Shown: one piece after another, positions 8,574 through 21,632 of the stretch
Layout of the letters: every line of letters begins with the position of its first letter
Numbering within the stretch: the first letter of the stretch is position 1
Virus record (IMG/VR): IMGVR_UViG_3300025646_004713
Location: 1-21,632 of that record
Reading direction: 5' to 3' (one strand)
DNA length: 21,632 bases
Origin: a virus
The notes under the pieces: model-generated
The model's input: the letters and a program-made list of their open reading frames with translations, nothing else
What the model was told of the DNA's origin: nothing
Databases searched by the model: none
Translations under genes and position numbers: made by a program

Positions 8574-9128
8574 ATGGCAAAGAAAAAATTACAACATTAT
8601 GTAAACAACAAAGAGTTTCTTGCTGCAATGATTGAGTATAAAAAATCAGTTGTTGAAGCAGAGAAAAGAAATGAACAACGACCTCCTGTCACTCCGTATA
8701 TTGGCGAGTGTATTATGAAGATTGCTGTTCATCTTTCTCATAAACCAAACTTTGTTAATTATACCTTCAAAGATGAATTTATCTCCGATGGTATTGAAAA
8801 CTGTTTACAATATATCGATAATTTTGATCCAGAAAAATCTCAAAATCCTTTTGCGTATTTCACACAAATTATCTTTTATGCATTCCTAAGAAGAATTCAA
8901 AAAGAAAAGAAACATCTCTATACAAAATATAAATTAGCAGATGAAATTAATGTTACAAATATGAATTATGATACACAAGATCATGATGGTGGCACTGATT
9001 ATGTAAACAAATCAAAAGCTGATGAATGGTCAAGAGATCATATTGATGTTTTCATTGAGAATTTTGAAGAAACAAAACGCAGAAAAAGAAATAGAAATAC
9101 TGCAGTAGATACGTTGATGTCAGATTGA
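8574..9128 (+). CDS. 55: Late-promoter sigma factor (gp55)
   Basis: A 184-residue protein (T4 gp55 has 185). It shares with T4 the N-terminal YVNNKEFLAAMIEYK, the central EFISDGIENCLQYIDNFDPEKSQNPFAYFTQI (about residues 66-98) and FLRRIQKEKK, which form the reduced sigma region 2 that binds core polymerase and opens TATAAATA promoters. The C-terminus AVDTLMSD (177-184) lies where T4 gp55 carries its sliding-clamp-binding motif (SLDFLYE), but it is diverged. Four exact TATAAATA boxes in this window are its likely targets. The gene abuts the Sm-like gene and precedes gene 47 by four bases. Confidence 0.95.
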   Translation: MAKKKLQHYVNNKEFLAAMIEYKKSVVEAEKRNEQRPPVTPYIGECIMKIAVHLSHKPNFVNYTFKDEFISDGIENCLQYIDNFDPEKSQNPFAYFTQIIFYAFLRRIQKEKKHLYTKYKLADEINVTNMNYDTQDHDGGTDYVNKSKADEWSRDHIDVFIENFEETKRRKRNRNTAVDTLMSD

Positions 9129-9132
9129 TAAT

Positions 9133-10203
9133 ATGAAAGCAGCAATTATAACTGATACACACTTTGGTGTGCGTAATGACAGTCATATTTTTTTAGATTA
9201 TTTTGAAAAATTTTATACCAATATTTTCTTTCCATATATCTTAAAAAATAATATTCAAACCATCTTTCATCTTGGTGATATTGTTGATAGGCGAAAGTTT
9301 ATCAATTATGTCACTTTGAAAGAATTTAAACGAATCTTTGTTCAACCTTGTATTGATAACAATATCAAACTTGTTGGTATTGTCGGCAATCATGATATTC
9401 CATATCGGAACACAAATGAAGTCAATGCAATGAATGAATTGTTTAACAATCCTAATATCACATTCTATTCAGAGCCAATTGAATATAACTTTAGTGATTG
9501 TATTATTGCAATGCTACCATGGATTAATAATACTAACTATGATGAATCTTTGAACTTTGTAAAGAATACAAAAGCACAAATTTTATTTGGTCACTTAGAA
9601 CTCGCTGGTTTCGAAATGTATCGAGGTATGCCAAACCCACATGGTATGCAAGCAAGTCTTTTTGATAAATTTGATATGGTATGTTCAGGTCACTTTCATC
9701 ATAAGTCTTCAAGAGGAAACATTAACTATCTTGGTAATCCATATGAATTATTTTGGAATGACTATAATGATCAAAGAGGATTTCATATTTTTGATTCTGA
9801 AAAAAGAGACTTGACTTTTATTCAAAATCCATATAGAATGTTTAATAAGTTATGGTATGATGATTTTGACATTTCTTCTTATGAAGAGATTATGAGTAAA
9901 TATAATTTTGAAGAATATACAGATACATATGTGAAAGTGATTGTTAAAAATAAAAATAATCCTTACTGGTTTGACATGGTATTAGATTCCCTGTACAAAA
10001 ATAATCCCGCAAATGTTTCGATTGTTGAAGATAATAAAAATTTAGATCAACAATCTGAAGAAGAAATTATAAGTGAAGCGGAAGATACGTTGACTTCGCT
10101 TTTTAAATATGTCGAAAAGATGGAAACCAAAGTAGATAAACAAAAGTTACAGCAACTATTTTCCAATCTTTATATTGAGGCACAAAACACGGAAGTTGCA
10201 TGA
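9133..10203 (+). CDS. 47: Recombination nuclease subunit gp47 (Mre11/SbcD type)
   Basis: A 356-residue calcineurin-like phosphoesterase. Metal-binding motifs are DTHFG (D8, H10), GDIVDRR (D49), GNHD (85-88), GHLE (H154) and GHFHH (186-190), in the order of Mre11/SbcD nucleases. With gp46 it forms the complex that resects DNA ends to 3' single strands for UvsX/UvsY recombination and helps degrade host DNA. Length matches T4 gp47 (339) with a slightly longer C-terminus. Its stop overlaps the gene 46 start (ATGA at 10200-10203), as expected for two subunits made in fixed ratio. Confidence 0.95.
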   Translation: MKAAIITDTHFGVRNDSHIFLDYFEKFYTNIFFPYILKNNIQTIFHLGDIVDRRKFINYVTLKEFKRIFVQPCIDNNIKLVGIVGNHDIPYRNTNEVNAMNELFNNPNITFYSEPIEYNFSDCIIAMLPWINNTNYDESLNFVKNTKAQILFGHLELAGFEMYRGMPNPHGMQASLFDKFDMVCSGHFHHKSSRGNINYLGNPYELFWNDYNDQRGFHIFDSEKRDLTFIQNPYRMFNKLWYDDFDISSYEEIMSKYNFEEYTDTYVKVIVKNKNNPYWFDMVLDSLYKNNPANVSIVEDNKNLDQQSEEEIISEAEDTLTSLFKYVEKMETKVDKQKLQQLFSNLYIEAQNTEVA

Positions 10204-11915
10204 TTCATTTTCATAATGTTCGGTGGAAAAATTTTCTTTCTACCGGAAACAGTTGGACTGAAATTCAGTTTGACAGAAACCCAACAACTCTAATTATTGG
10301 AGAGAATGGCGCAGGTAAATCAACTGTGCTTGATGCATTATGCTTTGTTTTGTTTGGTAAGCCATTTCGTAAAATTAACAAACCACAACTTGTTAACTCA
10401 GTAAACGGAAAAGGATTACTAGTAGAAATCGATTTTAGTGTTGGGAATAAGAAATATAAAATTGTAAGAGGATATAAACCTCACGTATTTGAAATTTGGC
10501 AAGATGGTATAATGATAAACCAAACAGCCAAAATCACCGATTATCAATCAGATCTTGAAAAAAATATTTTAAAACTCAATTACAATTCTTTCACACAGAT
10601 TGTAATATTAGGCTCATCTACCTTTATTCCTTTTATGCAATTGCCAGCATGGCAAAGGAGAGAAGTAATTGAGGATCTACTTGATCTCAAAATCTTCACT
10701 TCAATGAATCTTATTTTAAAAGAAAAATTACAAACGAATAAAGAAAACTTGAAAGAGATTCGTCATCAAATTGACCTTGAAGACGAGAAACTGAATGTAC
10801 ATAATCATTACATTGATGAAATTCGATCAAAGAATAAAGAAAGAATTGAAACATTAAAAACTGAAATTGAAAAGTCAGAAACATCGATAGTAAGATTAAA
10901 TGTTGATATTGATTTGAATAATAAATTAATTGATCAATTAAAAGACTCAATTAAAGATGAAGATAACGTAAACAAAAAACTCCAAGAGATTCTCAAGATT
11001 GAGAGCAAGTTTGAAGATAAGACAAAGAAACTAAAAAGTGAACTCAAGTTTTATGAGCAAAATGATCATTGTCCAACTTGTACACAAGAAATCTCTTTAG
11101 AGATTAAAGAGACAAAGATCAATGACAACAATCAAAAGATTCAAGATGTGGTAGATGCTCTAGAAAAGTTACAGATTGAACTTGATAAAGAGAATCAGAG
11201 ACTACTTGATATTCATGAGATTAACTCAGAGATTAAAGAGCATCTAGAAAAAGTATCTGACTGTAACAATCAGATTTCTTCATTAAACAAGTACATTGGT
11301 CAATTAAGAGAAAATATTGACACAGAGGTTGCTGATGTTGGTAGTCTAAAGAATGAAAATAAAAAGGTAAAAGAGATTGAGAAAAAAATAAAAGGTTATG
11401 AAAAACAAAAAGAGGATTACCTTTACGAACAACAACTCTTAAATGTTGCCGCTGACATGTTAAAGGATACTGGAATCAAAACTCAAATTGTTCGGCAGTA
11501 TGTTCCAGTTATGAATAAACTCGTAAATAAATATCTTGCTGCAATGGAGTTCTTTGTAAGTTTTGAATTAGATGAAAATTTTGATGAGTCTATAAAATCA
11601 AGACATCGAGATAAGTTTAGTTATTCTTCTTTCAGTGAAGGCGAAAAGATGAGAATTGATTTGTCTCTATTACTTACATGGAGAGCCATTGCAAAAATGA
11701 AAAACTCTACCAACACAAACTTACTTATTTTGGATGAAATATTTGATGCTTCATTGGATACTTCTGGTTGTGATGAATTTCTAAAACTACTCAATGAACT
11801 TGGTAAGGATACCAATGTGTTTCTCATCAGCCACAAAGGTGATGTGTTGCAAGACAAGTTTCGTTCTGTCATTCGTTTTGAAAAATATAAAAATTTCTCG
11901 AGGGTAGCAGCATGA
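10200..11915 (+). CDS. 46: Recombination ATPase subunit gp46 (Rad50/SbcC type)
   Basis: A 571-residue SMC-like ATPase (T4 gp46 has 560). The N-terminal Walker A is GENGAGKST (34-42). Coiled-coil arms flank a zinc hook CPTC (291-294). The C-terminal ABC signature is FSEGEKMRIDLSLL (about 478-491), followed by Walker B LLILDEIFDASLD (about 508-520). It pairs with gp47 as the Mre11-Rad50-like end-processing complex. The coiled coils are shorter than in cellular Rad50, normal for phage versions. The gene ends in an ATGA overlap with the next small gene. Confidence 0.95.
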   Translation: MIHFHNVRWKNFLSTGNSWTEIQFDRNPTTLIIGENGAGKSTVLDALCFVLFGKPFRKINKPQLVNSVNGKGLLVEIDFSVGNKKYKIVRGYKPHVFEIWQDGIMINQTAKITDYQSDLEKNILKLNYNSFTQIVILGSSTFIPFMQLPAWQRREVIEDLLDLKIFTSMNLILKEKLQTNKENLKEIRHQIDLEDEKLNVHNHYIDEIRSKNKERIETLKTEIEKSETSIVRLNVDIDLNNKLIDQLKDSIKDEDNVNKKLQEILKIESKFEDKTKKLKSELKFYEQNDHCPTCTQEISLEIKETKINDNNQKIQDVVDALEKLQIELDKENQRLLDIHEINSEIKEHLEKVSDCNNQISSLNKYIGQLRENIDTEVADVGSLKNENKKVKEIEKKIKGYEKQKEDYLYEQQLLNVAADMLKDTGIKTQIVRQYVPVMNKLVNKYLAAMEFFVSFELDENFDESIKSRHRDKFSYSSFSEGEKMRIDLSLLLTWRAIAKMKNSTNTNLLILDEIFDASLDTSGCDEFLKLLNELGKDTNVFLISHKGDVLQDKFRSVIRFEKYKNFSRVAA

Positions 11916-12690: not shown

Positions 12691-13059
12691 ATGACAAATT
12701 TTGATAAAGTAGCAGAATTTATGAACGCCTTTGGTCAAGATGTTGAGACTGAACCACAATGGACTTCTGTTGCACAATTACGTTATAAATTAATCAAAGA
12801 AGAACTTGATGAATTGAGTGAAGCATTATACGAACGGAATCTGATTGAAGTGGCAGATGCTCTTACTGATTTACTTTATGTTGTTTATGGAGCAGGTCAT
12901 TCTTTTGGAATTGATCTTGACAAATGCTTCGAAGAGGTTCATAATAGTAACATGAGCAAACTTGGCGAAGATGGTAAACCTATCTATCGCGAAGATGGTA
13001 AAGTATTGAAAGGTCCGAATTACTGGGCTCCTAATTTAAAAAAAGTTTTGAATGTCTAA
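12691..13059 (+). CDS. mazG: MazG-type nucleotide pyrophosphohydrolase
   Basis: A 122-residue all-alpha protein with the metal-binding pattern of the MazG/HisE-like NTP pyrophosphatase superfamily: EELDEL (37-42) and EVADALTDLLYV (53-64), giving E37, E38, E41, E53 and D56 as likely magnesium ligands. These enzymes hydrolyse (d)NTPs or related nucleotides to monophosphates. Phage MazG proteins have been proposed to tune nucleotide or alarmone pools during infection. In this context removal of an unwanted dNTP is also conceivable, but there is no direct evidence. It follows deformylase after 63 bases with no obvious promoter and overlaps the next gene by 8 bases. Confidence 0.85.
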   Translation: MTNFDKVAEFMNAFGQDVETEPQWTSVAQLRYKLIKEELDELSEALYERNLIEVADALTDLLYVVYGAGHSFGIDLDKCFEEVHNSNMSKLGEDGKPIYREDGKVLKGPNYWAPNLKKVLNV

Positions 13060-13951
13060 TGAATTCCAAAATAGATTAGATTCTTATAATAAAGACCATT
13101 GCTGGCAATATGACATAAGAATTAATAATTTAGAGCATGATCTCAAAGAAGCATTTTTAACCAAAGAAGAAGCTGAAGCTATAACTCTTTCAGATTTTAG
13201 TTTTGAAAGAGTTGTTAATAAAGAAACACAACAACAAATGGTTGAGTTTATCGAGAGACACGAATGGCTCGGTAATATTTCTCAGATGTCTTCGCATTGG
13301 TTTGCTGCTTATTATAATGGATCTTTATTTCCAAAACTTGCTGGTGTTATTATTATGAACCAGCCAAATGCATTTTCGAAAATGCTTGGCGAAGATACTC
13401 CGAAATTGGAAAGACTTATTAGTCGCGGCGCTTGTATTAGTTGGTCTCCAAAACATTTGGCATCTTCGTTTATTATGTGGTCCATTCGTTGGATGGTCAA
13501 AAATACACAATATAGATTATTTACTGCGTATTCTGATCCAGCAGCAAAAGAGCTTGGTACGATTTATCAAGCATGTAATTTTTATTATCTTGGTAATAAG
13601 TTTGGCGGCACAGAAAGATACATAAGCCCATATAGTGGTAAAGTTGTTTCTGATCGATATTTTCGTCAAGTTTATACGTATAAAAAATATGCTGAAGAGC
13701 TTGGTATTATTTGGGATAAAAAATGGGAACAAGAAATTCGTGGAATGCAATGGGAAAATGTTCCAAATGATATTGAAGAGAAACTAAGAAATCAGTCTAA
13801 GATAGCTCTAAAAAAAGCTGAAAAAATACTTGACATTCCAACAAAACATAAGTATGCTTATGTATTAGGTGAAAATAAAAAAGAAACCAAAGAGTTAAAA
13901 AGATTGTTTTTACAAAAAAATAAAGTGTATGAATATCCAAAGGATAGATAA
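13052..13951 (+). CDS. Mom-like GNAT-fold protein, candidate DNA base modifier
   Basis: A 299-residue protein. Residues 120-149 (ERLISRGACISWSPKHLASSFIMWSIRWM) and 158-181 (TAYSDPAAKELGTIYQACNFYYLG) resemble the phage Mom-like branch of the GNAT superfamily, where an R-L/I-x-S-R..S-x-F segment precedes an (A/S)DP...G-x-IY-x-A-x-N-(F/W)-x-Y-x-G core. The C-terminal KHKYAYVLG...YEYPK is also seen in such proteins, as I recall. Phage Mu Mom modifies adenine in DNA to block restriction. An acyl or carbamoyl-type transfer to a base or base side chain is the likely role here, strengthened by the downstream dioxygenase. It overlaps mazG by 8 bases. Family placement is from memory of motifs, not a search. 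Confidence 0.58.
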   Translation: MSNEFQNRLDSYNKDHCWQYDIRINNLEHDLKEAFLTKEEAEAITLSDFSFERVVNKETQQQMVEFIERHEWLGNISQMSSHWFAAYYNGSLFPKLAGVIIMNQPNAFSKMLGEDTPKLERLISRGACISWSPKHLASSFIMWSIRWMVKNTQYRLFTAYSDPAAKELGTIYQACNFYYLGNKFGGTERYISPYSGKVVSDRYFRQVYTYKKYAEELGIIWDKKWEQEIRGMQWENVPNDIEEKLRNQSKIALKKAEKILDIPTKHKYAYVLGENKKETKELKRLFLQKNKVYEYPKDR

Positions 13952-14557: not shown

Positions 14558-15814
14558 ATGAAAGAGTTAGTTCGCCCACATATTGATCGCGAAGATATTA
14601 TCGGCAAGTTTGCTGAACCAGAAGATATGAATATGGTTGTTCAAGAAGATTGCGATTTGTATAGTCTCAATCCTCATGATCCTGATCAGAAAAATGAAGA
14701 GAATATTATCTTCAAATTTCGCAAGGGTGTCTTTACAAAAGAAGAACAAGAACTAGCATATGCAGGTTTGCGCGAAGCAGCAACTGAATCTCAAAACCGA
14801 GGAAAAGCTGCTGGTCCAAGAGGCGATAATTTGGGTTCTGGGCAGCGTAGTCATCGTGATTGGGTGACTCCTTATCAACTAGAAGTAATTGAATACTTTT
14901 CTGGTAATCGTTTAGTTGAAGAATTTCCAACTAAAAAAGATGCCAAAGAAGAAACACGAGGTCAGGTTTGGTTGCGGTCAAAAGTCATTGGTGATAAGTA
15001 TGGCGAGTATGATGGTTGGTTTGACCGTTGGGTAACTCGTATGCACAACCAGCCTCCTAGTGTTCAAGCACAGGAAGCCGAAGAAGTTTGTAAAATGATT
15101 TCAGAAACAAATTATGCGCAAACTGTTTTGTCTGGTATCGCAGGTTTCTATGATCGTTATCCTCGTATTCCATATGGTCGTCCTGCTGGTTATAATGAGA
15201 AAAATCCAGAAAAGTTTGCCATGAGTTTTCCATATCTTCGTAAACTCAATAATATCTTTAGAAAAGAATTGCCTGTGCGATGGGCAGCACAAAGAGCAGC
15301 AGCTGATAAACTTGATCCAAAGTTTCTAATTGATGAAACAGTTTTTACAACACTGACTGTAAATTATAACTGGCGAACTGCAGGTCATCGTGATGCTGGT
15401 GATCTTTCTTCTGGATTCTCTAATATCTCTGGTATTGGTAAAGGTTGGAAAGGATTTGTATTCACACTTCCTGAATGGGAAATTGGTATCAATTTACAAC
15501 CAGGTGATTTGCTTCTCGTAAATAATCATGAAGGCATTCATACAAATACCGCTGAAATTGGTGATAATAATGATCGTGTTTCTATTGTCGCTTATTTTCG
15601 CGAGAAAATGCTCGAGTTGAAATCTTGGGATTATGAGATGACTCGAAAGCAGTTTGTAGAAGATCGACGCAAAGATAAAAACCATCCTCTCCAGCGTCCA
15701 CTTTGGAACGGTGTATCTCCAGGAATGTGGGAAACTGAAGAGTGGAGAGAATATATGAAATCTCACAATATTGACGACCCATATGGCGGAGGAACATTGG
15801 AGTCGTTTTTCTAA
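14558..15814 (+). CDS. TET/JBP-type 2-oxoglutarate/Fe(II) dioxygenase
   Basis: A 418-residue protein whose C-terminal half carries the TET/JBP dioxygenase signature. TVNYNWRTAGHRDAGD contains the iron ligands H277 and D279; the distal iron histidine is probably H328 in NNHEGIHTNT; and DRVSIVAYFR supplies a 2-oxoglutarate-binding arginine (R340 or R348). GWKGFVFTLPEW and LQPGDLLLVNNHEGIH are typical of the phage TET branch. These enzymes oxidise 5-methylcytosine (TET) or thymine (JBP) in DNA to the 5-hydroxymethyl base; phage TETs acting on 5-methylcytosine before further decoration have been reported. The N-terminal 200 residues are charged and may bind DNA. It has its own promoter and its stop overlaps the amidotransferase start (ATG inside TAATG). 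Confidence 0.86.
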   Translation: MKELVRPHIDREDIIGKFAEPEDMNMVVQEDCDLYSLNPHDPDQKNEENIIFKFRKGVFTKEEQELAYAGLREAATESQNRGKAAGPRGDNLGSGQRSHRDWVTPYQLEVIEYFSGNRLVEEFPTKKDAKEETRGQVWLRSKVIGDKYGEYDGWFDRWVTRMHNQPPSVQAQEAEEVCKMISETNYAQTVLSGIAGFYDRYPRIPYGRPAGYNEKNPEKFAMSFPYLRKLNNIFRKELPVRWAAQRAAADKLDPKFLIDETVFTTLTVNYNWRTAGHRDAGDLSSGFSNISGIGKGWKGFVFTLPEWEIGINLQPGDLLLVNNHEGIHTNTAEIGDNNDRVSIVAYFREKMLELKSWDYEMTRKQFVEDRRKDKNHPLQRPLWNGVSPGMWETEEWREYMKSHNIDDPYGGGTLESFF

Positions 15815-16527
15815 TGTGTGGCGTCATTGGTGTGTTTCTTCGAAACGTCAGTGATAATGACATTGAGATTGTAACAAAAGTAATTTTAGAATCACGCATA
15901 CGTGGCATGCATGCCACTGGTGTTTCTTATTATAAAAATGGTAAAATACATACCATTCGTGAACCAATATCAGCAAAATTGTTTTTAGAAAAACATCCTG
16001 TTCAAAAATTTGTAGAGGGTAATCAATTAACCATGATTGCTCATTGTCGTTATAGCACTAGCGACTTAGAGTTTAATCAACCTATCTACAATAAAGAATT
16101 AAGTATCGTTCACAATGGAGTGATTAGTCAAGAATTGCCAGAAAACTGGGAACGTCTATATGGTCACAAAACCAAAACAAAAAACGATACTGAACTTTTA
16201 TTGTATTCTAAAAATGTTTTTATAGATTGGGAAGATGCATCAATAGCTGCAGTTGAATTGACTGAAAATAAAACACTGCGTTATTACCGAAATGGCAAAC
16301 GTCCACTCTATCATTCAAAATTAAAAAATGGTTTTATTATTACATCTACTTCAGATATAATGAAAAGAGTAGATCCATCAATCAAATCTGAGAGGCTTAC
16401 GCCAGGAATATATAATATAGTGAAAGATAATCCTTTACATGAAAATAAAATTCAACACTATGAAGAAATTGAAAGTGAGATTAATATAAATGACTTACAA
16501 CCCGAATTCGTTCACATGGGGGTATGA
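15814..16527 (+). CDS. Stand-alone class II glutamine amidotransferase
   Basis: A 237-residue N-terminal-nucleophile hydrolase domain starting MCGVIGV, so Cys2 becomes the nucleophile after methionine removal. Glutamine-site motifs are RGMHATGVSYY (30-40), HCRYST (77-82), HNG (100-102) and NDTELLL (124-130), as in GlmS and PurF. Those enzymes carry a fused synthase domain; here none is present, so ammonia or a glutamine-derived group must be used by a partner. The obvious partner is the amidoligase that overlaps its 3' end by 38 bases. Stand-alone amidotransferase and amidoligase pairs have been predicted in phages to build amide-linked modifications. The phage deformylase upstream could help expose Cys2, which is speculation. 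Confidence 0.88.
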   Translation: MCGVIGVFLRNVSDNDIEIVTKVILESRIRGMHATGVSYYKNGKIHTIREPISAKLFLEKHPVQKFVEGNQLTMIAHCRYSTSDLEFNQPIYNKELSIVHNGVISQELPENWERLYGHKTKTKNDTELLLYSKNVFIDWEDASIAAVELTENKTLRYYRNGKRPLYHSKLKNGFIITSTSDIMKRVDPSIKSERLTPGIYNIVKDNPLHENKIQHYEEIESEININDLQPEFVHMGV

Positions 16528-17365
16528 AGTTGAGTGGGGCGATATCGATCGCCGACTTTCAATCCCAGAACATATTGGAAAGTGGGAATATGCAGAGACA
16601 GATATTGTAAATCTGTGCGAGCCGTTTCGTTATGTTGCATGTGACCCTCTTGGCAAAGAACCATATATGGGGGGTGAAGTAAACACCAAACCAACAAAAA
16701 CTTGGCAAGAGCAGGTTGACCGTATTTTGGAACTCAAACAATTTTTTGAAGATAATGGAAATACGCCAACAGCTTCTTGTATCAATCATGGTCATGTACA
16801 TGTTTTTGTTCCAGGTCTTAAAGAGGATCTAATATCTTTAAAAAAACTTATCGCCTACATCAAAGCGAATCAAGAACTCACAATTGAACGGGTTTATGGG
16901 TTTTATGATCATCCACAAATGAAAAAGGCAAAGGGCGCAACCATGTATCTAAAATACGATGGTGGTCGTATTATGCCTGATTATATGTGCGACAACATTA
17001 TCAATCTTGCAACTGATTTTGAATCTTTTATTAAACTTCATGCTGCTGGTAAAGATGGTGTATCAATGGGTCGCCCATTTCGTTATGCTATCAATACATA
17101 CTGCATGAAACACACAGGCACAATCGAGTTTCGTTGTTTCCGTTCAACAACAAAACGTAAACAATTAGAGGACCAGTGTAGATTTGCAGAAGCATTTGTT
17201 GATGCTGCGTTAAACGATGGACCATCTGTTTCTGAGATTCTAGATGCATATGATTATGAGTTTCCTCCATTCATTTGGGATCAATTTGAATATATTGGAT
17301 GGGAAAAAACAAAATATTCTAAAGAGAGAGGCAACAAAGTTAGAGAATTCCATGAAGTTGCGTAG
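16490..17365 (+). CDS. Amidoligase (glutamine-synthetase fold, COOH-NH2 ligase)
   Basis: A 291-residue protein with the motif series of the Amidoligase_2 family: WGYEVEWGD (10-18, metal-binding Glu), ACDPLG and GGEVNTKPT (50-69), CINHGHVHVFV (97-107), RPFRYAINTY (195-204) and GTIEFRCF (210-217). These ATP-dependent enzymes join a carboxyl to an amine through an acyl-phosphate. The first catalytic motif begins at residue 10, so the ATG at 16490 is the only workable start and the 38-base overlap with the amidotransferase is real. The pair is probably co-translated. Likely substrates are amino acids or an amino side chain on a modified base; the sequence does not say which. Confidence 0.8.
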   Translation: MTYNPNSFTWGYEVEWGDIDRRLSIPEHIGKWEYAETDIVNLCEPFRYVACDPLGKEPYMGGEVNTKPTKTWQEQVDRILELKQFFEDNGNTPTASCINHGHVHVFVPGLKEDLISLKKLIAYIKANQELTIERVYGFYDHPQMKKAKGATMYLKYDGGRIMPDYMCDNIINLATDFESFIKLHAAGKDGVSMGRPFRYAINTYCMKHTGTIEFRCFRSTTKRKQLEDQCRFAEAFVDAALNDGPSVSEILDAYDYEFPPFIWDQFEYIGWEKTKYSKERGNKVREFHEVA

Positions 17366-17885
17366 TTGTAGTTGTGAACAGTTTATGAATGCAATGACAG
17401 ATGACCCTGCTGATAAGTTTGCAAAGACATTCGTTGCGAAAGCGAATATGCAAAATCAGTGGGAGTTCTGTGTCGGTGCATGGGATAAAGATAATCTTAT
17501 GGGAGCTATTATAACAACACTTTCGAAAAGGTATCCAATAGTTGCAAATTTACAATTACTCCATACTTTCAATGCTCATCGAGGTAAGGGTGTGGCTAGG
17601 AGGTTGTGTGAACAATCTCTAAATTACGCCATACAGAACAGCTCAATGTATTTCCGCGTATCAGCCGAGCCAGATGCGGTAGTTTTTTATGAACGTATAG
17701 GGTTCCGTATGCTTGGAAAACAGAAGTCTGGATGCCAGCTGAGCATGTTTCGCATAGGTGGGAGAACCTTCCAGGAGGGTATCTATGATATTGAAGATCC
17801 TGTGATTTCCAAGGCTGTGTACAAGAAAGGGAAGGGAGGTTGCGTCGAAATCTTTGAAGAAAAACAACAGGTTACACTTTTTTGA
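17352..17885 (+). CDS. GNAT-family N-acetyltransferase
   Basis: A 177-residue GNAT protein. Acetyl-CoA-binding motif A is NAHRGKGVARRL (74-85), matching the R/Q-x-x-G-x-G/A pattern, and motif B appears as AVVFYERIGFRMLG (109-122). The start at 17352 overlaps the amidoligase by 14 bases. A longer frame from 17244 would overlap the amidoligase much further and adds nothing GNAT-like. A C-terminal extension of about 40 residues (from YDIEDPVI) is not part of the usual core. It ends the operon that begins at the dioxygenase promoter, so acylation of an amino group on a hypermodified base is the favoured role; protein or antibiotic acetylation remains possible. Confidence 0.82.
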   Translation: MKLRSCSCEQFMNAMTDDPADKFAKTFVAKANMQNQWEFCVGAWDKDNLMGAIITTLSKRYPIVANLQLLHTFNAHRGKGVARRLCEQSLNYAIQNSSMYFRVSAEPDAVVFYERIGFRMLGKQKSGCQLSMFRIGGRTFQEGIYDIEDPVISKAVYKKGKGGCVEIFEEKQQVTLF

Positions 17886-17895
17886 CAAAAAGTGT
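17874..17895. repeat. Perfect inverted repeat overlapping the GNAT stop and a -35 box
   Basis: Arms ACACTTTTT (17874-17882) and AAAAAGTGT (17887-17895) flank TGAC. The TGA stop of the GNAT gene (17883-17885) and the TTGACA -35 (17882-17887) lie in the centre. It may be an operator or a weak bidirectional terminator. Confidence 0.55.
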
Positions 17896-17923
17896 TTACA
17901 AAAATATAGAAATATAGCATAAT
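17882..17923 (+). promoter_or_regulatory. Two overlapping sigma70-like promoters for the HNH/ParB gene
   Basis: First: perfect -35 TTGACA (17882-17887), 17-base spacer, -10 TATAGA (17905-17910). Second: TTTACA (17895-17900), 17-base spacer, CATAAT (17918-17923). Either gives a leader of roughly 65-80 bases before the gene at 17994. The unit would also cover the helical enzyme, the kinase and the nuclease at the end of the window. Confidence 0.72.
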
Positions 17924-17993: not shown

Positions 17994-19499
17994 ATGATTA
18001 CTACTAATGCTATGGACTATAAAACATATGAAGAAAAGGTTCGCGACGCTACAAATCATGCTAAAAAGCATGTACCAGGCGCCAATGAAAAGGGGATGGT
18101 TGTTGATCATATCGTTCCAATCCTTTTTGGGTGGGAATATAACATTCCTATCGAGTTGATGTCAAATCTGAAGAATTTGCAATGCATTTCTGTAGAAAAA
18201 AACCTAAAAAAAGGAAGTTCTATTACGGAAGAATCAGTCGAGCTACTGCAATATTGGCGTCAAAATGGGCTTGTTAGTGATAAAGTTTCATATTTTATTG
18301 AAAAGAAATCCAAAGCAACCCAGTTGAATTATGATTGGTCGAAAGTATATGAAGAACTACATATTCCAGAGAATATGAAGATGTACACCATGGTAATTCC
18401 TACTGTTGTTGCATTCTCTATTGATCCTGTTTTTTGTCAAAGGTCGCATGAAGATCGTTGGCAAAAAACGAAAAAGGCACTTGGTCGTGTTGCTCTTCCT
18501 ACACATCGTAAGATGTCATTTTGTGTTTATCCTGATGGCAGAATTCGCCGTTTAGATGGAAACACTCGAACTTATGTTTGGGAAAATAATTTACAATTCG
18601 ATGAATATATTGTTCCAGAAAGTATCAGTGCAGATTTTTATGCTGTTGAAAATGATGAAGAAGCAGAAATTCTTTACCATTCAATTGATAGCATTGACAC
18701 TGCGGAAACATTTTCAGAGAAGATTTCTGGATATCTACGGTTCAAGAACTATCGCGATAATCTTCCTACGCAGTTTCGGAAGGGTGAAAAGGTCTATGAC
18801 ATTATGATTGTTGCCATTGACAATTTTATTCCTAAGAATGAAAAAGAACCACTTTCGTTCACCCATAACAAGAATATTGGTTATGGCGACAAAGCAAAAA
18901 AGACTGTTGAACTTCTTGACTACTTCATTCCAGAATTAGTTTCTTTGGGATCTGTGATAAATCAAGATACTCTGCCAAGGTCTTTAACTGCTCCTCTATG
19001 TGCATCGTTGGTGCGTCATATGATGAGGGATGGTCATGGCCAAGTCAATCTAGAATTACAAAAGATTGTCGAGATGACTGTGGATGCATGTAAATATGGT
19101 CGAAATGTTTTTGAACGCAGAAAAGGTTTATTTGCTGATTCTGTTGATTCTGTGATTCTAAAAAACATTGAAATTATGCTAGATGAATTGCTAACACCAG
19201 AATCGACTAATGCAGCTCTAAACCCAAGGATTGATTATAGGGAAACCACTACTCGTCAGGTGCTTCCATATAATGCTACGAAGACGACTGTAAATACTGC
19301 TGATCGTCGTATCTATTGTGGTTTCGTTCATTATGTCATCGATAAGTGTTTGAACGGAGAAGAAATAAGTGAAGATTTGCTTCTTGAATTGACAGGAAAG
19401 AAGGTAACAGATGAAACTCCTCGATCTGACTCAAATCAAGTAGAGATTGAAGCAATATCTATTGTGCAAAATGTATATGATAATTTTTGGAAACAATAA
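17994..19499 (+). CDS. HNH-type protein with a ParB-like segment
   Basis: A 501-residue protein. Residues 36-74 (VVDHIVPILFG..NLKNLQCISVEKNLKKGS) show an HNH nuclease pattern, D38-H39, N61 and N70 with K73. The middle region, HRKMSFCVYPDGRIRRLDGNTRTYVWEN (171-198) followed by YIVPESISADFYAVENDEEAEILYHSIDS, looks like the N-terminal ParB/sulfiredoxin fold, where a DGxxR motif forms the nucleotide-binding pocket. The C-terminal 250 residues are helical and unrecognised. The ATG is preceded by AGAAGGAAA and by strong promoters. It may recognise or cut DNA in relation to the base modification, or be a homing-type insertion fused to a host-takeover protein. Function is uncertain. Confidence 0.55.
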   Translation: MITTNAMDYKTYEEKVRDATNHAKKHVPGANEKGMVVDHIVPILFGWEYNIPIELMSNLKNLQCISVEKNLKKGSSITEESVELLQYWRQNGLVSDKVSYFIEKKSKATQLNYDWSKVYEELHIPENMKMYTMVIPTVVAFSIDPVFCQRSHEDRWQKTKKALGRVALPTHRKMSFCVYPDGRIRRLDGNTRTYVWENNLQFDEYIVPESISADFYAVENDEEAEILYHSIDSIDTAETFSEKISGYLRFKNYRDNLPTQFRKGEKVYDIMIVAIDNFIPKNEKEPLSFTHNKNIGYGDKAKKTVELLDYFIPELVSLGSVINQDTLPRSLTAPLCASLVRHMMRDGHGQVNLELQKIVEMTVDACKYGRNVFERRKGLFADSVDSVILKNIEIMLDELLTPESTNAALNPRIDYRETTTRQVLPYNATKTTVNTADRRIYCGFVHYVIDKCLNGEEISEDLLLELTGKKVTDETPRSDSNQVEIEAISIVQNVYDNFWKQ

Positions 19500-20519
19500 T
19501 TGGATTATCGCCTAAAAGAAAACCGTCGTGAAGGTTTCATCCGCTGGTTCGCTTGGTCACTTAAATATGGTGACTGCGATCCAGCGGTTTGGCTCACTAA
19601 CTATCTAAATCGACGGTATGAACATAATACAGAACAGAAACTCTGGTTCTGTTGGTTGTATGGTAACACTTACAATCTACCAACAGCATGGGTTTTGTTA
19701 AACGAGTTTCCTGACTTTGAACTCGCAACCGTTGATCGAATGGAGCAGTGGAATACTGCAAACTATAAAAGACTACGGTATCAGGTTGATACAAAATGGA
19801 ACAAGGGGCATCTACCTACCATGTTTGCTTCTTACCAAGAGTTCATAGGTGAACAAACCCAACAAAAAAAGATTGAATCGTTATATAAAGGTTCGCCATC
19901 TGAAAATTTTGATAGCCTTTGGAATACGATGAAATCTTCGTTGCATAAATTTGGTCGATATTCAACATGGTTTTACTTACAGCATTTGAAACAGACAGCC
20001 GATGTGAATATCAATCCAACCAGTTTAATGCTCAATGACTACTCAGGATCTCGCTCACATCGTAATGGTTTGCTGTTTTCTCTTGGTCGGGATGAGGACA
20101 TTAATGCTAAGTTAACCAAAGAGCAGTATGCTGATTTGGAAAAAGAGGCAACAGATATTCTAATTGAAACCAAACAAAGATTTCCCAAGTTAGCCAATCA
20201 AGTAGACTACTTCAACATGGAAACTTGTCTTTGTTCTTATAAAAAAATATTCCGCGAACATCATAGTCGCTATCTTGGTTACTATCTTGATCGCCAGTCT
20301 GGAGAAATTCAGAAAGCAGAGAGTGATGGATGGTATGGTATTGAATGGGAGGTTCTTTGGCAATCAAGAACTGAAACTCTCGATAAAAGATTAGACGAAA
20401 GATTTAATAAACAAAATGAGAAAAAGTTCTTGACTTCTTTCCATGAGGATGGTAGACTGAATAGAATGGAATGGATGTTTGAAGATCGCTCCAATACACT
20501 TGAAAGATTTTTAATATGA
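19500..20519 (+). CDS. Helical enzyme of the aGPT-pyrophosphorylase / hydroxymethyl-base kinase-associated type
   Basis: A 339-residue all-alpha protein. LWFCWLYGNTYNLPTAWVLLNEFP (48-71), SYQEFIGEQTQ (111-121), FGRYSTWFYLQHL (151-163), SRSHRNGL (184-191) and METCLCSYKKIFREHHSRYLGYYLDR (about 241-266) resemble DNA-glycosylase-like helical proteins predicted to act on hydroxymethyl-base phosphates in phage hypermodification. Known relatives transfer an amino acid or polyamine onto the activated methyl group of thymine derivatives. The start is TTG, directly after the TAA of the upstream gene, so translation probably depends on reinitiation; no in-frame ATG occurs for 80 codons. The next gene is a P-loop kinase, the expected preceding enzyme. 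Which subfamily it belongs to needs a profile search. Confidence 0.6.
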   Translation: MDYRLKENRREGFIRWFAWSLKYGDCDPAVWLTNYLNRRYEHNTEQKLWFCWLYGNTYNLPTAWVLLNEFPDFELATVDRMEQWNTANYKRLRYQVDTKWNKGHLPTMFASYQEFIGEQTQQKKIESLYKGSPSENFDSLWNTMKSSLHKFGRYSTWFYLQHLKQTADVNINPTSLMLNDYSGSRSHRNGLLFSLGRDEDINAKLTKEQYADLEKEATDILIETKQRFPKLANQVDYFNMETCLCSYKKIFREHHSRYLGYYLDRQSGEIQKAESDGWYGIEWEVLWQSRTETLDKRLDERFNKQNEKKFLTSFHEDGRLNRMEWMFEDRSNTLERFLI

Positions 20520-21064
20520 CAAAATTAATTGGTATTGTTGGAATGCCTGGAACTGGCAAGACAACATTAATTCGTGAATGGATGAAACTTCGTGATTGGA
20601 CTCCAGATACTCCAATCAAACTACTTGATAGTTATGTATCAGGTGATATTCGTTTGTTTGGTAAGTATGAAGAAGGCGAAACATTTGCAGGAACTGATCG
20701 ACTCAGCATGGCAGTTCAACCAGCAGCGATTGAGTACTTATCAGATAATCCTTCTCCTGTGAATATCTTTGAAGGTGATCGTCTTACATCAGCAAAGTTT
20801 TTTCAGGCTGCGGTCGAACTTGGGTATGAAGTTTCAATTGTTATCCTTGAAGTCTCAGACTCAGTTCGAGAAGCAAGATACAAAGAAAGAGGTTCAGATC
20901 AATCTGAGACTTTTATCCAAGGTCGCCGCACTAAGATTGAAAACATCAAAGAAAGTTTTGGTGGTAGTGTGTTGACTGGTGAACCTTCGTTGTATGAAGT
21001 TTTCCAACATGAGACACCAGAAGACACTCAGAAAATTATTGACCACATAGAAGGTTTGGTATGA
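20516..21064 (+). CDS. P-loop kinase, candidate hydroxymethyl-base DNA kinase
   Basis: A 182-residue P-loop NTPase with Walker A GMPGTGKTT (9-17) and a compact nucleotide-kinase-like layout, including IFEGDRL (about 83-89) as the probable Walker B region and REARYKERGSDQSETFIQGR as a lid-like Arg/Lys segment. Family members of this size phosphorylate small molecules, nucleotides or, in hypermodifying phages, 5-hydroxymethyl bases in DNA. Its ATGA overlap with the helical enzyme gene matches the kinase and transferase pairing predicted for base hypermodification. It could instead be an ordinary nucleoside or polynucleotide kinase. The stop overlaps the nuclease start (ATGA at 21061-21064). Confidence 0.68.
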   Translation: MTKLIGIVGMPGTGKTTLIREWMKLRDWTPDTPIKLLDSYVSGDIRLFGKYEEGETFAGTDRLSMAVQPAAIEYLSDNPSPVNIFEGDRLTSAKFFQAAVELGYEVSIVILEVSDSVREARYKERGSDQSETFIQGRRTKIENIKESFGGSVLTGEPSLYEVFQHETPEDTQKIIDHIEGLV

Positions 21065-21632
21065 TTGATTATAAACACGAAGCATTTGTTTACCTTTGGT
21101 ACGACTCAAATAATAAGAAATATTATTATGGGTCTCACAAGGTTTCCAAAAAACCAGGTAAAGATACATATGCTCATTCATCCACTTTAATGGAATCGTT
21201 TAATATGAATAGTGTTCCTCCTGGATTTAGTCGTAAAATAATTGCAGAAGGATCACATCAAGATATGTTAGATTTGGAAATTAAAATCTTACAAAACAGA
21301 TTTAGTAGTGGAAAATGGCATAGATATTGGAATGTTTGTATTAATAAAATGCCTTATATGTGGAAAGATCCAGAATATCGAAAGAAGATGTCTAATATAA
21401 CTAAAGAATTCTGGAAAGATCCAGAATATCGAAAGAAGATGTCTAAAAAGAGTAAAGAAAGATGGAAAGATCCAGAATATCGAAAGATGCGTTCTGAACA
21501 AGTGTCTAAAGATGTGAAAGAATTCTGGAAAGATCCAGAATATCGAAAGAAGATGTCTGAACAGAGGAAAGAAAGATGGAAAGATCCAGAATATCGAAAG
21601 AAGATTTCTGAACAAGTGTCTAAAGATGTGAA
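21061..21632 (+). CDS. GIY-YIG homing-type endonuclease with NUMOD-like repeats, 3' end missing
   Basis: The frame starts MIDYKHEAFVYLWYDSNNKKYYYGSHKV and is open to the window end (190 residues). VYLWYD...YYYGSHK is the GIY-YIG catalytic start in the variant common in phages; AHSSTL, FSRKIIAEGS and LDLEIKILQ then follow the domain pattern, with E78 of LDLEIK as the likely metal-binding glutamate. After residue 100 the protein becomes tandem WKDPEYRKKMS repeats, a nuclease-associated modular DNA-binding tail. Such genes are selfish homing elements in T4-like phages. It overlaps the kinase stop by four bases, so it may be cotranscribed with the modification genes. Confidence 0.82.
   Translation, partial: MIDYKHEAFVYLWYDSNNKKYYYGSHKVSKKPGKDTYAHSSTLMESFNMNSVPPGFSRKIIAEGSHQDMLDLEIKILQNRFSSGKWHRYWNVCINKMPYMWKDPEYRKKMSNITKEFWKDPEYRKKMSKKSKERWKDPEYRKMRSEQVSKDVKEFWKDPEYRKKMSEQRKERWKDPEYRKKISEQVSKDV
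21361..21632 (+). repeat. Tandem coding repeats of the nuclease tail
   Basis: Repeat units begin at 21361, 21412, 21463, 21526 and 21577, with lengths 51, 51, 63, 51 and at least 56 bases. Each starts TGGAAAGATCCAGAATATCG and encodes WKDPEYRK followed by a variable basic spacer. Near-identity at DNA level points to recent expansion. The array continues past the window. Confidence 0.92.

Follow-up and report, generated by a model that had tools for sequence, protein, structure and literature searches.

A probable post-replicative thymine-hypermodification operon with a TET/JBP oxygenase, a PF18751 kinase and an amino acid:DNA transferase in a T4-like phage

Organization of the locus and its conservation among relatives

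The window, by which we mean the whole 21,632-nucleotide stretch of IMG/VR record IMGVR_UViG_3300025646_004713 that was analyzed, is a fragment of a T4-like phage. Genes for a major head protein, tail tube, UvsY, a helicase, a late sigma factor and a gp46-like (SbcC-like) recombination nuclease subunit lie upstream of an operon, and the following features were assigned in and around it:

14558..15814, plus strand: TET/JBP Fe(II)/2-oxoglutarate oxygenase (418 aa; PF12851, phrog_24024)
15814..16527, plus strand: class II glutamine amidotransferase (GAT-II) domain protein (237 aa; PF13522)
16490..17365, plus strand: amidoligase-like protein, COOH-NH2 ligase fold (assigned from relatives matching Amidoligase_2, and from fold)
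17352..17885, plus strand: GNAT acyltransferase (PF13673, E 6.7e-15)
17994..19499, plus strand: protein with HNH-like N-terminus and possible ParB-like domain (501 aa; weak matches to phrog_6050, E 0.0067, and phrog_5104)
19500..20519, plus strand: ADDT, amino acid:DNA transferase (aGPT-Pplase2) (339 aa; PF18724)
20516..21064, plus strand: Ploopntkinase3-type kinase (182 aa; PF18751)

The initial annotation of this DNA had drawn attention to two reading frames overlapping by four bases, and both were found where it placed them, with the ADDT and kinase genes sharing ATGA at 20516-20519. The ADDT gene starts with TTG and abuts the TAA stop of the gene upstream. The ATGA overlap is not special to this pair, as the kinase gene overlaps the next, GIY-YIG-like ORF (21061-21632) in the identical way. 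That ORF carries a repeated KDPEYRKKMSE motif, extends past the end of the window and, judged by eye, is likely a homing endonuclease gene. A small ORF separates ADDT from kinase in many relatives. The genes for TET, GAT-II, amidoligase, GNAT, ADDT and kinase form one operon, so that the GAT-II, amidoligase and acetyltransferase genes between TET and ADDT, which lay outside the coordinates of the initial annotation, are part of the kinase-ADDT unit. A promoter scan returned 43 sites against 32.7 expected; the sequence TTTACA-17-CATAAT at 17895-17923, upstream of 17994, is a plausible putative promoter. Directly upstream of TET, at 13052-13951, is a gene for a Mom-like protein (PF25680, E 8e-11; phrog_1384, E 7.5e-16), so that the phage may modify adenine too.

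Searches of IMG/VR yielded 39 loci via ADDT and 17 via TET. A recognizable ADDT was present in 46 loci, of which 20 had at least 4.5 kb upstream and at least 1.5 kb downstream of it. TET, GAT-II, ADDT and kinase occurred in constant order in all 20 of these well-flanked loci, GNAT was present in 16 of the 20 and amidoligase in 11, a conservation of gene order well beyond chance. The pairing of a kinase with an ADDT-type protein downstream of TET, proposed from the window alone, is supported. In one locus (L043) TET and kinase are 80% and 92% identical to those of the window and ADDT only 32%; GAT-II is missing there and another protein takes its place. A divergent ADDT between near-constant TET and kinase looks like an exchangeable transferase cassette acting on a common activated base. 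In a further locus (L018) ADDT and kinase are separated by a gene of the flavin-dependent tryptophan-halogenase family (10106-11611; PF04820, E 8.5e-93), possibly another tailoring enzyme.

The HNH-like protein at 17994-19499 had no Pfam match. A possible ParB-like character was read by eye from the stretch RRLDGNTR; no database match bore it out, and there was no significant similarity to the ParB-like protein of locus L016. The latter (8706-9998) has a homing-endonuclease-like N-terminus and is encoded immediately upstream of ADDT; genes of its type recur in 9 of the 46 loci, and in the window the HNH-like protein takes the same place.

Predicted activities of the encoded enzymes

The ADDT protein matched PF18724 (formerly aGPT-Pplase2) over profile positions 12-231 of 232 (E 7.7e-25; 88.4 bits, cut-off 26.2) and phrog_3271 with E 6e-56. 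Its structure, predicted from 31 sequences of the window and its relatives, was helical throughout (pLDDT 83.2). The top PDB match of this model in Foldseek was 8z2m, a 5-PmdU glycinyltransferase (probability 1.00, TM 0.54/0.62, with a weak E of 0.084). The top three matches, at probability 0.98-1.00, were all chains from entries 8z2m and 8z2n, which are named 5-phosphomethyl-2'-deoxyuridine glycinyltransferase, and AGOG DNA glycosylases were the next plausible folds. Ten viral models matched with E below 0.001, and three of those are named ADDT. An unrelated fold, against which the initial annotation had asked that its helical protein be checked, was therefore not what modeling returned. PDB sequence searches with TET or ADDT gave no significant match; the ADDT of phage M6 is itself a sequence relative of the 8z2m chain (E 1.2e-90). 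A profile of the window-group ADDTs picked up those of phages ViI (E 8e-43) and Cr30 (5e-46), and did not detect those of M6, PhiW-14 or CaiB. Across ViI, M6, PhiW-14, CaiB, Cr30 and the window group, G152, G190, E241 and C245 do not vary and K248 hardly does.

Both the family and the model predict that ADDT swaps the phosphate of a phosphomethyl base for an amino acid. Homology thus favors the phosphomethyl intermediate that had been suggested for this locus, with the nearest solved fold being a 5-PmdU glycinyltransferase and G152, G190, E241 and C245 common to the ADDTs of chemically characterized thymine-hypermodifying phages. The suggestion of an amino-linked base stands as far as the kinase and ADDT pair with TET is concerned; the link itself may be of another kind, as the window ADDT is nearer to that of ViI than to that of M6. 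The base of ViI is an ether, 5-(2-aminoethoxy)methyl-dU (PMC6449724). Given this closeness to the ViI enzyme, an O-link would be as possible as an N-link.

The kinase matched Ploopntkinase3, PF18751 (E 1.4e-20; 74.1 bits, cut-off 27). Its Walker A motif is intact (GMPGTGKTT; GxPGTGKTT in relatives), and across 43 relatives Walker A, GKYxxGExFxGTDRxSMAVQP and EGDR are kept. We predict from these matches that it is a 5-hydroxymethyl-base DNA kinase which replaces the usual HMUDK. The HMUDK helical domain (PF18723) was found in ViI, M6 and PhiW-14; it had no match in the window kinase and was not found in two contigs of the lineage (G001 and G002), in Cr30 or in CaiB, so that HMUDK was rejected as the activating kinase where the lineage was tested.

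The kinase substrate is the weakest link in this scheme, given that PF18751 kinases occur in mycobacteriophages without ADDT, and to our knowledge no PF18751 member is a proven DNA kinase. The enzyme could instead be a nucleotide kinase of general metabolism, with some other activation route linking the TET product to ADDT. Relatives are annotated as adenylate kinase, and a PDB profile search gave general P-loop matches only, adenylate kinases among them. In mycobacteriophage Phipps, the PF18751 kinase gene adjoins the terminase gene, with no detectable TET or ADDT; specificity for hydroxymethyl bases is therefore not a property of the family. However, the kinase stays downstream of ADDT in 20/20 syntenic loci, CaiB has a PF18751 kinase beside TET and ADDT, and, with HMUDK lacking from G001, G002, Cr30 and CaiB, the genes seen include no further candidate for the activation step. 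We consider a purely metabolic role unlikely.

TET matched PF12851 (E 5.1e-16; 58.8 bits, cut-off 34.9) and phrog_24024 (E 8.9e-122). Its HxD...H...R signature (an H-R-D pair, distal His and Arg, which bind Fe and 2-oxoglutarate in the superfamily) is kept in at least 97% of 46 relatives. Its predicted reaction is hydroxylation of thymine in DNA at the 5-methyl group. Public annotations can mask this family: the TET/JBP genes of KF301602.1, KU682439.2 and MG450654.1 are labeled 'SNF2 DNA repair protein'. A 'queuine tRNA-ribosyltransferase' gene of Mycobacterium phage Indlovu (L115, 809-1687) has weak similarity to Tet_JBP and phrog_24024 and neighbors a glycosyltransferase, a deacetylase and a PF18751-like kinase; its annotation is possibly mistaken.

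GAT-II matched PF13522 (E 1.2e-10) and begins Met-Cys, the Cys being the nucleophile, which is kept in relatives whose start lies inside the contig; it is predicted to supply NH3 from glutamine. The amidoligase assignment rests on relatives and fold: 11 of 14 family members matched Amidoligase_2 (PF12224; best E 7.3e-9), whilst the window member scored below the cut-off (E 0.07; 13.4 bits, cut-off 22), and its model (pLDDT 80) had YbdK and gamma-glutamylcysteine synthetase as top PDB folds (probability 0.97-1.0, at E above 0.001). The predicted role of this enzyme is to amidate the carboxylate of the amino acid once attached, or to conjugate it, and that of the GNAT protein, from its family, is acylation of the side-chain amine on the base. 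PALP-type PLP enzymes decarboxylate the attached amino acid. M6, Cygsa01 and ViI (in the last at 30.6 bits, under the cut-off) have such an enzyme, and none was found in Cr30 or in seven contigs of the window lineage. This is consistent with a retained carboxylate, on which GAT-II, as the source of ammonia, and the amidoligase would have an obvious substrate.

Candidate base and proposed pathway

The initial annotation had proposed phosphomethyl-cytosine as the intermediate. On that route TET would convert 5-methylcytosine to 5hmC, the kinase would form phosphomethylcytosine and ADDT would add an amino acid to cytosine. We searched for a C5-cytosine methyltransferase in 13 large contigs plus Cr30 and then in 41 contigs plus 16 phages including Cr30 (54 IMG/VR contigs and 16 phages, the window itself lying outside the search). 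None was found in any ADDT-bearing record; the sole match among the 70 records was Methylophilales phage Melnitz, which has no ADDT. As the contigs are mostly fragments, this absence rests mainly on the complete Cr30 and CaiB genomes and on contigs of 161, 126 and 98 kb.

The source of the hydroxymethyl group was then compared between phages. ViI, M6 and PhiW-14 have no TET and carry ADDT, HMUDK and a divergent TS-like protein, which scores 50.6-66.3 bits; Cygsa01 and VPALA likewise lack TET and pair ADDT with a divergent TS-like protein. In Cr30 and CaiB, ADDT occurs together with TET, with neither a divergent TS-like protein nor HMUDK. The TS of Cr30 looks ordinary, with a score of 372.9 bits (TS-like proteins of other phages, 33.5-66.3) and the dUMP-selecting Asn retained (IPYNIAFY). 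In 13 related contigs, a PF00303 search for a TS homolog that might serve as dUMP hydroxymethylase found none. This complementary distribution, which spans few independent lineages and is good circumstantial evidence short of proof, suggests that TET replaces the TS-like hydroxymethylase, 5hmU being made directly in DNA. Together with the lack of a C5-methyltransferase in ADDT-bearing records, it makes thymine, or hmU, the likelier substrate.

Some observations do favor cytosine. In Melnitz a C5-methyltransferase, TET and a relative of the kinase adjoin, so that TET and kinase do co-occur with cytosine methylation; phage TETs acting on 5mC exist; and a host methyltransferase could provide 5mC. 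Against this, the ADDTs of chemically characterized phages come from thymine systems, the closest match in fold among solved structures is named as a 5-PmdU transferase, the ADDT-bearing records tested, complete Cr30 included, gave no methyltransferase, and a literature search of limited coverage returned nothing relevant on a 5hmC DNA kinase or on phosphomethylcytosine. The inferred cytosine target is probably mistaken, and we regard that route as quite improbable for this operon. The Melnitz row itself (MZ577098; L094, 4010-8090), in which C5-methyltransferase, TET, a 427-aa protein and a PF18751-like kinase are encoded consecutively, is a candidate place to seek phosphorylated 5hmC in DNA.

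That the TET product mostly stays 5hmU or receives another cap, with GAT-II, amidoligase and ADDT acting on, for example, a protein or nucleotide, is very improbable, for although close TET relatives in DLP6, C48C1 and S-CBWM1 lack ADDT, the window ADDT is full-length, shares its residues with the ViI and M6 enzymes and is in fixed synteny with TET.

The locus probably serves a T4-like phage for post-replicative hypermodification of its thymine, working through TET, the PF18751 kinase, ADDT and tailoring enzymes. The reactions, substrates and order of steps that follow are our reading of the gene identities, ADDT fold, synteny and catalytic residues, and of the absence, where tested, of C5-methyltransferase, hydroxymethylase-like TS and PLP enzyme. 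TET/JBP would convert thymine in DNA to 5-hydroxymethyluracil, and the Ploopntkinase3 enzyme would phosphorylate the hydroxymethyl group to give 5-phosphomethyl-dU. Through ADDT, an amino acid would replace the phosphate; GAT-II and amidoligase may then amidate or extend its carboxylate and GNAT acylate its amine. The final modified base would shield the genome from nucleases or host defenses. We know of no phage with the window's gene set whose DNA bases have been analyzed. More tentatively, the product may be an undescribed thymine base, formed by TET oxidation in DNA, a DNA kinase other than HMUDK and an interchangeable ADDT, followed by GAT-II/amidoligase amidation, such as an N-acylated aminoacyl-amide on the 5-methyl group.

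Should this pathway be correct, phages would reach 5-phosphomethyl-dU in two unrelated ways, by nucleotide-level hydroxymethylation or by TET oxidation of finished DNA. The latter would be a prokaryotic counterpart to thymine oxidation by JBP, and the operon would bring the base-modifying DNA kinases to two families and provide new side chains on DNA.

Comparison with known hypermodification systems

In the route of ViI, M6 and PhiW-14, 5hmdU is made and incorporated first and phosphorylated in DNA afterwards, whilst the JBP of trypanosomatids hydroxylates thymine in DNA; M6 DNA bears a thymine hypermodification (PMC6449724). The bases concerned are 5-NeOmdU in Salmonella phage ViI, 5-NedU in Pseudomonas phage M6 and putrescinylthymidine in Delftia phage PhiW-14. 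The window lineage has in common with these phages, whose thymine hypermodification is chemically proven, the ADDT family PF18724, a predicted kinase-activated hydroxymethyl base and a side chain that would derive from an amine or amino acid. The three phages have a TS-like protein (presumed dUMP hydroxymethylase) and HMUDK (PF18723), and ViI and M6 a PALP-type PLP enzyme; in contrast, the window lineage has TET/JBP, a PF18751 kinase, GAT-II, amidoligase and GNAT.

The CmoX/CmoY carboxymethylcytosine system of phage S-B43 (PMC12783734) resembles the proposed pathway in that a side chain on a phage DNA base is amidated by an ATP-dependent ligase. Unlike the window, it acts on cytosine and uses a C5-methyltransferase homolog, Cx-SAM and an asparagine-synthetase-like ligase, and the terms TET, kinase and Pplase are absent from its description (PMC12783734).

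The initial annotation did not know the phosphomethyl-cytosine route to be established. TET-kinase-ADDT sets are already in print as thymine predictions, in CaiB (PMC9302106) and Tonitrus (PMC11955845), and the combination of ParB, TET, ADDT and kinase is a published prediction in actinophages. Gordonia phage CaiB has ParB, TET/JBP, pyrophosphorylase and kinase genes with 4-bp overlaps, credited to Iyer 2013 (PMC9302106); Rhodococcus phage Tonitrus reportedly has a thymidine hypermodification set of tet-like protein, aGPT-Pplase2 and 5-hmU DNA kinase (PMC11955845). The actinophage ParB-TET/JBP-pyrophosphorylase-kinase predictions cite Iyer 2013 and Lee 2018/2022 (PMC9302106, PMC11955845). The window is like CaiB in having TET/JBP, ADDT and a PF18751 kinase in one overlapping operon, and CaiB has no C5-methyltransferase. 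It differs in that CaiB is an actinophage whose ADDT and TET are only remotely similar and among whose genes 1-5 no GAT-II or amidoligase is named. What is new here is the T4-like phage version, in which the tailoring genes apparently differ, being an amidotransferase and amidoligase and not a PLP enzyme, and the ADDT cassette looks exchangeable.

Caulobacter phage Cr30, a complete T4-like genome, likewise has no C5-methyltransferase, and the sequence of the 40 kb region examined showed neither GAT-II nor amidoligase. A literature search for the base composition of its DNA came up empty. Its TET, ADDT and kinase are 39%, 29% and 38% identical to those of the window; unlike in the window, the genes are spread over approximately 9 kb with others interspersed. 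As a complete, cultured phage of Caulobacter crescentus, Cr30 opens the core question to nucleoside mass spectrometry.
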